Source: Christiangramia sp. OXR-203 | GTDB taxonomy: Bacteria; Bacteroidota; Bacteroidia; Flavobacteriales; Flavobacteriaceae | Assembly (NCBI RefSeq): GCF_034372165.1 | Contig: NZ_CP139698.1 | Span: 2,852,001-2,916,000, forward strand | Length of the DNA: 64,000 bases | Direction of reading: 5' to 3' | Shown: piece by piece, positions 1 through 2,967 of the stretch | How positions within the stretch are numbered: position 1 is the stretch's first letter | Layout: each line of letters opens with the position of its first letter | Position numbers and translations under genes: made by a program | The notes under the pieces: model-generated | Database searches by the model: none | What the model saw: the letters and a program-made list of their open reading frames with translations, nothing else | What the model was told of the DNA's origin: nothing

Positions 1-102
1 GAGCATATCCAGGTCTATTCGCCTGTCTTCAGAACCCGAATAAAGTTTCACGGGAATTGAAACCAGACCAAAACTTATTGAACCATTCCAGATTGAGCGC
101 AT
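1..102 (-). CDS. ku: Ku protein (NHEJ end-binding), N-terminal fragment
   Basis: Reading the minus strand from the ATG at 102 gives 34 codons to the window edge with no stop. They begin MRSIWNGSISFGLVSIPVK and continue LYSGSED, the hallmark N-terminus of bacterial Ku. Ku is a homodimeric ring that binds DNA double-strand ends and recruits ligase LigD for non-homologous end joining. The start lies one base after the TAA of the upstream 82-aa gene (TAA-T-ATG), so the two are almost certainly translationally coupled. The rest of Ku, and any ligD gene, lies outside the window. The family call rests only on these 34 residues, but they are highly characteristic. Confidence 0.9.
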   Translation of the reverse strand, partial: MRSIWNGSISFGLVSIPVKLYSGSEDRRIDLDML

Positions 103-103
103 A

Positions 104-352
104 TTAGTGGTTTCTTAGTGCTTTAATCAATTCATCTTTAGACATATCACTTCGTCCATCGATGCCTACTTTTTTCGCCTGCTCGTAGAGTTCCTCTTTT
201 GTTCTCTCTTCGTAATTTTCGGCTTTACCACCTTTCTCTCCGGAATTGGACGTATTGGCGATCCTCGCCGCTTTTTCCTTGCTCATTCCTTCCTTGCGCA
301 ATTTCTCGTACTGCTCATCATTTTTAATACTGGGTCCGTGATCTTTTGACAT
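104..352 (-). CDS. Small DUF7218/Rho_N (SAP-like) domain protein upstream of Ku
   Basis: A protein of 82 residues, highly charged. Residues 1-35 contain the KDHGPSIKNDEQYEKLR and KEGMSKEKAARIAN segments typical of the DUF7218 family. Residues 47-82 form a short helix-extended loop-helix (RTKEELYEQAKKVGI, then MSKDELIKALRNH) like the Rho-factor N-terminal or SAP-type nucleic-acid-binding fold. The gene directly precedes Ku with one base between stop and start. SAP-like modules are known as DNA-binding parts of eukaryotic Ku70, so a DNA-end accessory role is a reasonable inference but unproven. A TAnnTTTG-like sequence about 25-35 bases upstream could serve as promoter, but it is one base off. 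Confidence 0.75.
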   Translation of the reverse strand: MSKDHGPSIKNDEQYEKLRKEGMSKEKAARIANTSNSGEKGGKAENYEERTKEELYEQAKKVGIDGRSDMSKDELIKALRNH

Positions 353-506
353 CTTCTGAATCTTTTGAATTGAACTTAAATTTAATCAACCTTTCAGCAG
401 TCCTGAAATTTTAAGGGATTGATTAACCATAGTTTAACTGAAATACCAGTTTAAAGATCGTTTTTCCGAAGGAATAGGAGAATGATACTTTTGGCTAGAA
501 ATTGAA

Positions 507-558: not shown

Positions 559-2967
559 CTATAGTGCGTCGATCTTTTTCTGCACTTCCAGGCTTGTGCC
601 TTCAAATTCATAGGTATCACTGGTCTCATTTCCATTTAAGGAACTTGTGACCACTACCCTTGCAGTTACCAGATCTTCCAGATCATTTTTCTCCAAACTA
701 ATTTCTTTTGAAATCACAGAACCTTCCAAAGAGATCACCTCAACAGTTTCCTCCTGGTTTGGAATGTCAGCATCTGTATGCCCACCTAAAATTGGTGCGA
801 TTACCAGGCCGATAAGGCAGGTTAATTTAATTAATATATTCATAGAAGGACCTGAAGTATCCTTGAAAGGATCTCCTACCGTATCACCGGTTACTGCTGC
901 CTTGTGAGCATCAGAGCCTTTATAGGTCATCTCCCCATTGATCATGACTCCGGCTTCAAAAGATTTCTTGGCATTATCCCAGGCACCTCCGGCGTTATTC
1001 TGAAAGATAGCCCAAAGCACACCACTCACAGTAACCCCCGCCATATAGCCCCCAAGCATTTCAGCAATTGCGAGATTATCCATCCCAAAGATCATTGGTA
1101 GAAATGCGATGACCAATGGAAAACCAATAGTTAACATGCCTGGCAGCATCATTTCTCTTAAGGAAGCTTCCGTAGAGATCGCCACGCACTTATCATATTC
1201 CGGTTTCGCCGTTCCCTCCATAATTCCCGGAATATCCTTGAATTGTCTTCGTACTTCCTGCACCATTTCCATCGCGGCTTTACCCACCGCATTCATTGCC
1301 AAAGCAGAGAAAACCACGGGAATCATCCCACCAACAAAAAGCATCGCCAGAACAGGAGCTTTGAAAATATTAATTCCTTCAATCCCTGTAAAGGTTACAT
1401 AGGCGGCAAAGAGAGCTAAAGAAGTTAAAGCAGCAGATGCAATTGCAAAACCTTTTCCTGTGGCTGCGGTCGTATTTCCTACAGAATCCAGAATATCTGT
1501 TCTTTCTCTTACTATTGGCTCCTGCTCACTCATTTCAGCAATACCTCCAGCATTGTCTGCTATAGGTCCAAAGGCATCGATCGCCAGCTGCATAGCTGTA
1601 GTTGCCATCATTGCTGAAGCTGCCAATGCAACTCCGTAAAATCCTGCGAAAGCATAAGACGCCCAGATCGCACCGGCGAATAATAAAATTGAAGGAAAGG
1701 TAGAGATCATACCGGTCGCCAAACCTGCAATTATATTTGTTCCAGCTCCAGTACTTGATTGCTGAACGATCTTGAGAATTGGTTTTTTCCCCAGCCCTGT
1801 ATAATATTCGGTAACTGAAGAAATCGCTCCACCTACAACCAGACCAACCAGCGTTGCGTAAAATACGCGCATGGAACTTATGTTAATCATTTCAAATCCT
1901 TCCTCTCCACCTATAAAGAATCCCATCGTCATGGTATTCGCAGGTAGCATCCAGTTTACCAGAAAATAACAGGAAACCGCGACCAGTAAGATCGAAACCC
2001 AGTTCCCAATATTTAAAGCTTTCTGAACTTCCGATTCTTTAGCCGAATTTGAAGAAATTCTTACTAATAATGTCCCGATTATGGAAATGATTATTCCAAC
2101 ACCGGCGATTGCCATTGGCAACAAAATTGGTCCAATACCACCAAAGCCTTCGCTGGTGATATCACCTCCCATATCCTCGATTATATAATTTCCAAGCACC
2201 ATTGCTGCCAGCACTGTGGCCACGTAACTTCCAAAAAGATCGGCTCCCATTCCGGCAACGTCACCTACATTGTCTCCAACATTATCTGCAATGGTCGCAG
2301 GGTTTCTAGGGTCATCTTCAGGGATACCTGCTTCAACTTTACCAACGAGATCAGCTCCAACATCTGCAGCTTTGGTATAAATCCCTCCTCCTACTCTCGC
2401 GAAGAGTGCTATAGATTCGGCACCGAGAGAAAAACCAGCAAGGGTCTCCAGAACCACGGTCATTTGCTGAGTATTGGTCCACTCTCCTCCCATAAAATAA
2501 TGAAAGAAGAATATAAAGAAGCCGGTAAGACCAAGAACTGCGAGACCAGCAACTCCAAGTCCCATCACTGTTCCACCTCCAAAAGAGATATTTAATGCTT
2601 CCGGCAGGCTGGTTCTTGCCGCCTGCGTAGTTCTTACGTTAGTTTGCGTAGCGATCTTCATCCCGATATTTCCAGCAAATGCTGAGAATATCGCACCGAA
2701 AATAAAGGCAACGATGATGAGATAATGGGTGGTTGGAACGAAGTATGCAATTGCGGCCAGTGCAATGCTGGCTCCAATCACAAAGAGAGTCAATAATTTG
2801 TATTCTGCTTTTAAGAAGGCAAGAGCTCCTTCATAGATATGTGCTGAAATTTCTTTCATTTTTCCGTCTCCGGAGTCCTGTTTCATCACCCAGGATCTTT
2901 TGACCCACATAAAGATGAGTCCGATGATTGCCAGCACCGCTGGCAGGTAGATCATTATTGATTCCAT
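559..2967 (-). CDS. hppA: Membrane-bound ion-pumping pyrophosphatase (K+-dependent type)
   Basis: An 802-residue integral membrane protein with about 16 hydrophobic segments. It hydrolyses pyrophosphate and pumps Na+ and/or H+ across the inner membrane. The substrate signature [11 protein letters not shown] is at 202-212, the Asp-rich DNVGDNVGD loop at 228-236, and [12 protein letters not shown] at about 464-475. [10 protein letters not shown] at 497-506 has Ala where K+-independent enzymes carry Lys, so K+-dependence is predicted from family rules. Pumped-ion specificity cannot be decided by eye. The last ~65 residues form a hydrophilic, acidic tail after the final membrane segment, longer than in many family members. 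The soluble pyrophosphatase gene lies just upstream on the same strand, so the same substrate is served twice. Confidence 0.96.

Follow-up and report, generated by a model that had tools for sequence, protein, structure and literature searches.

The DUF7218-ku-ligD Locus

The window, that is, the whole analysed stretch of 64,000 nucleotides from Christiangramia sp. OXR-203, begins within a set of three genes, DUF7218-ku-ligD, on the minus strand (G000:C1 2852352-2848938). The first gene of the set (104..352, minus strand) starts with ATG and encodes a protein of 82 amino acids with a DUF7218 part and a Rho_N (helix-extension-helix, HEH) part, in which 18 K and R residues stand beside 17 D and E residues. 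It is followed by ku, whose initial 34 codons (1..102, minus strand) lie in the window and which runs on to G000:C1 2851329, and by ligD (G000:C1 2851325-2848938, minus strand), which begins 3 bases past ku. At the junction (103..106, minus strand), the TAA of DUF7218 at 106-104 is separated by the single base 103 from the ATG of Ku at 102-100. An earlier note on this DNA had described a charged 82-residue protein ending one base before the Ku ATG, with which the sequence agrees, and the leftward extension proposed there yielded the complete Ku (257 aa) and LigD (795 aa) in the genome. The Pfam search recovered the Ku core over the entire profile (PF02735, 164.4 bits, positions 1-190 of 190), and LigD carries all three of its domains (LigD_N, 143 bits; ligase, 128 and 106 bits; Prim-Pol, 292 bits).

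Upstream of the set, a direct repeat GTTAAA-N5-GTTAATC (421..438, minus strand) is located 69-86 bases before the start of DUF7218. The upstream neighbour, a gene for an 802-aa protein that we take to be hppA, of the membrane pyrophosphatase type (559..2967, minus strand), ends 206 bases before DUF7218 and forms a conserved left flank.

The ku and ligD genes were adjacent in the family loci examined. The Christiangramia set shares with the two-gene ku-ligD operon of Bacteroidota the ku gene and the three-domain LigD, here 3 bases apart, and differs from it in the additional first gene of the Christiangramia lineage. DUF7218-ku-ligD is a variant, not previously known, of the known ku-ligD operon type.

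Family and Fold of the DUF7218 Protein

Residues 4-45 of the protein matched the DUF7218 family (PF23855) at 69.1 bits against a cut-off of 27, and residues 51-79 matched Rho_N / HEH (PF07498) at 25.6 bits, a small margin over the cut-off of 24.9. The structure was modelled with AlphaFold2 from 80 sequences (alignment A2, consisting of the window protein and 79 of the 80 loci; L131, which has a GTG start, was omitted), with a mean pLDDT of 80 and a pTM of 0.45. The model places helices at residues 12-21, 25-32, 52-62, and 72-81. Residues 44-82 align over 39 residues with the Rho N-terminal subdomain (2a8v_A; Z 6.2, rmsd 1.6) and also with residues 464-503 of FAN1 (4reb_A; Z 5.5), presumably its SAP domain; values of Z below 8 are modest, all Foldseek E-values were above 1, and fold similarity shows no function. 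The C-terminal half is therefore predicted, at modest Z, to have the helix-extension-helix fold of Rho_N / HEH, and the Rho_N-like character proposed for it in the earlier note agrees with both the Pfam match and the model. A sequence search of solved structures returned two Rho chains and no others, both weakly (E 0.058 and 0.17). No SAP family was among the Pfam matches of the protein at E up to 1, and no Ku70 chain was among the fold matches of the model, an absence that does not exclude likeness.

The possibility that the protein is a transcription termination factor was considered and rejected, as it has just the 40-residue HEH in common with Rho. The N-terminal HEH subdomain of Rho (2a8v, 1a8v) resembles residues 44-82, but the RNA-binding and ATPase parts of Rho would not fit in 82 amino acids. 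The automatic label 'Rho termination factor' has only the HEH as its basis, which suggests that it is misleading for the DUF7218 family. The HEH of DUF7218 most likely binds nucleic acid. The literature search found no text naming DUF7218, and in it 'Rho termination factor' was not found alongside end joining and LigD, nor alongside CsbD and stress.

The window protein also matched two phage families with both of its halves covered, namely phrog_3281 (endonuclease VII family, 36 bits) and phrog_390 (Arc-like repressor family, 25 bits). Matches to phages came from 47 records, 45 of which bear the names of mycobacterial phages (for example, NC_022061.1 60622-60723); among the 20 listed of these 47, one match covers 80% of the query and the other 19 fall within residues 5-59. 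In Portibacter (L007:542-958), three more matches to the HEH half are found upstream of DUF7218, which looks like a repetition of the module.

Conservation of the DUF7218-ku Junction

Ku was found in 20 and DUF7218 in 23 of the 24 Christiangramia genomes, and the genome with neither is 73% complete. DUF7218 lies directly upstream of ku in all 20 Ku-positive genomes, with spacings of -4, -1, 0, +1, +2, or +3 bases and with TAA, TAG, and TGA all occurring as the stop codon. As this tight spacing recurs in 20/20 genomes, the junction is not due to chance. Elsewhere, the spacing is +1 in four Salegentibacter loci, +9 in a Flavobacteriaceae MAG, and about +148 in a Gillisia MAG. The MAG G493 (L047, L063) has two ku genes, of which the copy adjacent to DUF7218 encodes a Ku 74% identical to that of the window and the divergent copy one that is 31% identical.

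Outside Bacteroidota, Pelagicoccus has a separate cluster in which DUF7218 is followed after 7 bases by ku and then by ligD. Its Ku is 40% and its DUF7218 protein 66% identical to those of the window, which argues that the whole set was not recently transferred. All three genes occur together in 10 of the best 80 of 480 confirmed DUF7218 loci, a sample skewed towards close relatives. About 21 of these 80 loci lie outside Bacteroidota by their titles (two are unassigned), and among them ku is nearby in Pelagicoccus only. The coupling of DUF7218 to ku is real and conserved, and it is chiefly the trait of one clade.

It could be argued that ku-ligD landed once behind DUF7218 and has since been carried along without functional meaning, since most cases come from one clade and the two units are separable at the Christiangramia locus. 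We consider such a coincidence quite unlikely in view of the spacing kept in 20/20 Christiangramia genomes and, at +1, in four Salegentibacter loci, of the separate Pelagicoccus cluster, and of the strong phyletic association of Ku with DUF7218 described below.

The junction stays within a few bases though the stop codon and spacing vary, as would be expected if DUF7218 were a short upstream frame that merely secures the translation of ku, its protein having another role and being irrelevant to repair. The protein, however, is 63-84% identical to that of the window across the best 80 of the 480 confirmed loci, which belong to several phyla by their titles and of which 70 have no Ku in the locus DNA. 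Its dN/dS is low (0.06), a value from just 9 usable pairs (6 for Ku), as most comparisons were saturated. The co-occurrence of Ku and DUF7218 at non-adjacent sites is also left unexplained, and this role of a mere leader frame appears improbable to us.

Distribution of DUF7218 and Ku across Genomes

Profile searches in a sample of 299 genomes of the family detected DUF7218 in 68, Ku in 24, and both in 20. DUF7218 was thus present in 20/24 Ku-positive versus 48/275 Ku-negative genomes (p 6e-11), where this and the other co-occurrence tests use raw genome counts and ignore the species tree and genome size; counted by genus, the link was 18/19 versus 35/217. NHEJ is linked to genome size according to the sections of PMC7719229 consulted. 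Ku was absent from 48 of the 68 DUF7218-positive genomes. Meanwhile, DUF7218 adjoins ku in three of the 20 genomes having both, and in a fourth (G374) the two genes are 6.4 kb apart within an island of repair and stress genes. When 50 of the best 80 of 480 loci were submitted, 48 genomes resulted, and Ku was found in 14 of these. DUF7218 is therefore neither restricted to Ku-positive genomes nor usually adjacent to ku in the family, as a dedicated NHEJ accessory would be.

In three Christiangramia genomes (G965, G966, and G967), DUF7218 is flanked at the same locus by the upstream neighbour and by APP1, and Ku is absent. Loci L070 and L076 show the same arrangement and probably represent two of these genomes, since they encode DUF7218 proteins identical to the ones in G967 and G966. 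In G548, which belongs to another genus, DUF7218 likewise stands beside APP1 with no Ku (L018), and in G325 ku follows the upstream neighbour gene while DUF7218 lies on a different contig. DUF7218 and ku-ligD are separable units, and DUF7218 is the more persistent of them.

In the class sample of 295 genomes, 6 have DUF7218 above the cut-off. In the class of the Oricola genome it was found in one of 190, namely the Oricola genome used as the centre, and in the Pelagicoccus order in two of 132, the Pelagicoccus centre included. The second positive genome of that order has no Ku within 1.5 kb of DUF7218.

Ku Proteins with a Fused HEH Module

Ku70 carries SAP in its own chain. Among bacterial Ku proteins, a Ku borne on a Streptomyces plasmid (L145:3155-4171) has a C-terminal stretch that is identical to residues 28-79 of the DUF7218 protein at 26 of 52 positions, with a Rho_N match of 15.8 bits, which is below the cut-off. 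A search with the last 138 residues of this Ku gave matches in 52 plasmid records; among the 30 listed of these, all are from Streptomyces and the matches reach the HEH part. The annotation of several matching genes reads 'hypothetical protein'. An HEH/SAP domain in KuB of Streptomyces coelicolor (SCO0601) was predicted by Aravind and Koonin in 2001, as cited in the consulted parts of PMC5124664 and PMC11936186. In these Streptomyces proteins, a Rho-type HEH is tied to Ku, as it is with DUF7218. The module is fused there, whereas in Christiangramia it is encoded by a separate gene coupled to ku, is joined to the additional DUF7218 half, and occurs mostly without Ku.

As a similar HEH module is joined to Ku in Streptomyces, DUF7218 may have a direct role with Ku. 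In such a role, DUF7218 would give Ku an HEH DNA-binding module in trans and aid its loading, bridging, or threading at DNA ends. The idea of a Ku accessory, put forward in the earlier note, is borne out in part. The strict coupling kept throughout the genus Christiangramia, the Pelagicoccus cluster with its 40% identical Ku and 66% identical DUF7218 protein, the HEH fused to some bacterial Ku proteins, the presence of DUF7218 in 20/24 Ku-positive genomes of the family, and the association that remains within CsbD-positive genomes (see below) all speak for it. It loses ground on the survey that the note had called for, which showed DUF7218 rarely next to ku outside Christiangramia (3 of the 68 DUF7218-positive family genomes, 48 of which have no Ku). 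Moreover, 17 of the 20 genomes with both genes have them apart, DUF7218 is kept where ku-ligD is missing from the same locus, G325 has ku without an adjacent DUF7218, the Ku of Pelagicoccus already has a long lysine-rich tail of its own, and the closest tested partner of DUF7218 is csbD. On balance, we regard an accessory of this kind as unlikely.

A broader form of the same idea would make DUF7218 a split-off HEH module that acts with Ku in trans and, in cells that lack Ku, protects or organises DNA alone under stress. The DUF7218 proteins of Bacteroidota and Pelagicoccus would then parallel the fused HEH of Streptomyces KuB and the SAP of Ku70. We hold this version to be unlikely too.

CsbD as a Control and the Neighbourhoods of DUF7218

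CsbD, a small stress protein, served as a control across the same 299 genomes; 100 were counted as positive at E up to 0.001, 98 of them above the family cut-off. CsbD was present in 63/68 DUF7218-positive versus 37/231 other genomes (p 4e-32) and in 22/24 Ku-positive versus 78/275 other genomes (p 9e-10). Because CsbD links equally strongly to Ku and more strongly to DUF7218, we rejected the raw co-occurrence of Ku and DUF7218 as sole evidence. When the CsbD-positive genomes were considered separately, DUF7218 was found in 19 of 22 with Ku versus 44 of 78 without it (odds ratio 4.9, p 0.012). Most, though not all, of the Ku-DUF7218 link may therefore reflect shared membership of a stress gene set. 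The closest tested co-occurrence partner of DUF7218 is csbD, closer than Ku, and DUF7218 thus co-occurs with a known stress gene, as is expected of a general stress gene.

In 13 of the 68 DUF7218-positive genomes, csbD and DUF7218 are divergent neighbours with 221-322 bases between the profile matches (G343, G363, G332, G401, G415, G536, G422, G378, G521, G426, G582, G308, and G447). The gap between them is a possible shared promoter region.

Within 8 kb of DUF7218 in the best 80 of 480 loci, a csbD-like gene was found in 4, DUF892 in 3, SDR in 6, and Ku in 10, and none of these four in 61. The commonest recurring neighbours are other genes, for example one for a membrane protein, presumably of a transporter type, in 19 of the same best 80 of 480 loci. 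DUF892 and this type of SDR are assumed here to be stress genes. DUF892 is divergent from DUF7218-ku-ligD in three Salegentibacter loci. The SDR adjoins DUF7218 at an identity of at least 45% in six loci, four from Algoriphagus, one from Brumimicrobium, and one from a Gemmatimonadetes MAG; the query was the SDR of G374, which passes the PRK06701 model, and matches below 45% were omitted. In G374 itself, an island (L197, G374:C1 648000-662000) holds a lone ATP-dependent ligase, an SDR with a SpoIIAA-like domain, ku, ligD, two DUF892 genes, a fasciclin gene, DUF7218, DUF3891, and an SDR.

The Region Upstream of DUF7218

The GTTAA..GTTAAT pair was found upstream of DUF7218 in 22 of 23 Christiangramia genomes, including all three that lack Ku; the Salegentibacter loci showed no such pair before DUF7218. 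Its retention in the three Ku-less genomes indicates that the control region stays with DUF7218 rather than with ku. Throughout the genome, the repeat pattern has 8 sites (1 exact and 7 with one mismatch) versus 14 for the reversed control pattern, so the repeat defines no regulon.

For the motif test of DUF7218, 110 unique upstream stretches were reduced to 80 by a G+C limit and by the removal of near duplicates and of L184-L187. For that of csbD, 29 of 39 regions had a recognisable start, and 28 of these were left after the removal of duplicates. GTTAAT was mildly enriched upstream of DUF7218 (21/80 versus 7 expected) and also upstream of csbD (9/28 versus 2.6 expected); in both sets the enrichment is too weak to build on. 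No promoter element common to DUF7218 and the csbD of the same genome was found in the upstream motif tests. As these tests gave just a repeat conserved in Christiangramia, they do not allow a regulon to be proposed.

In Salegentibacter and Gillisia loci, a GTTAA..GTTAAT repeat is located between the ppa-type and hppA-type genes (L065:5163-5179, L066:4703-4719, L067:4693-4709, L068:4672-4688, and L075:3997-4013).

Discussion

The interpretation starts from features observed directly, namely the gene order, the conserved junction, the retention of DUF7218 without ku, and its co-occurrence with a stress gene. In the explanation that we favour, with confidence slightly better than even, DUF7218 would be a small HEH protein of stress type that shares its message with ku-ligD in one lineage and so ties NHEJ to stress. 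A tie to stress is likelier than service to Ku only, since DUF7218 is much commoner than Ku, is kept without it, and tracks csbD.

The proposed arrangement may be outlined as follows. DUF7218 would be a widespread stress-type protein with a helical N-terminal half and a Rho-type HEH. In the lineage of Christiangramia, Salegentibacter, and Gillisia, ku and ligD lie directly behind its gene, and from this position we propose that all three proteins are translated from a single transcript governed by the DUF7218 control region. Ribosomes finishing DUF7218 could then restart on ku. The benefit for NHEJ would be mainly regulatory, with the end-joining proteins produced alongside stress proteins once growth stops. 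The DUF892 and SDR neighbours and the G374 island also speak for this arrangement. Against it count the varied neighbourhoods, with none of the four tested genes near DUF7218 in 61 of the best 80 of 480 loci, the negative search for a promoter element shared with csbD, the restriction of the upstream repeat to Christiangramia as compared with Salegentibacter, the use of raw genome counts for co-occurrence, and the residual link between Ku and DUF7218 in the CsbD-positive genomes, which need not be due to regulation alone.

A comparable tie is known from Sphingopyxis granuli, where the general stress regulon directly includes both ku-ligD and 'stress inducible csbD' according to the consulted portion of PMC7083833. 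As far as that portion goes, csbD and the NHEJ genes go together there as they do in the Bacteroidota sample. The control by EcfG in Sphingopyxis granuli is experimental, whereas for Bacteroidota the tie is drawn here from co-occurrence and neighbourhood.

These results connect a small, unnamed, and very conserved protein family with DNA repair as well as with a stress gene. They bear on whether NHEJ serves as a stress function in Bacteroidota, as it does in some alphaproteobacteria, and on whether the HEH/SAP module of Ku can work as a separate subunit.
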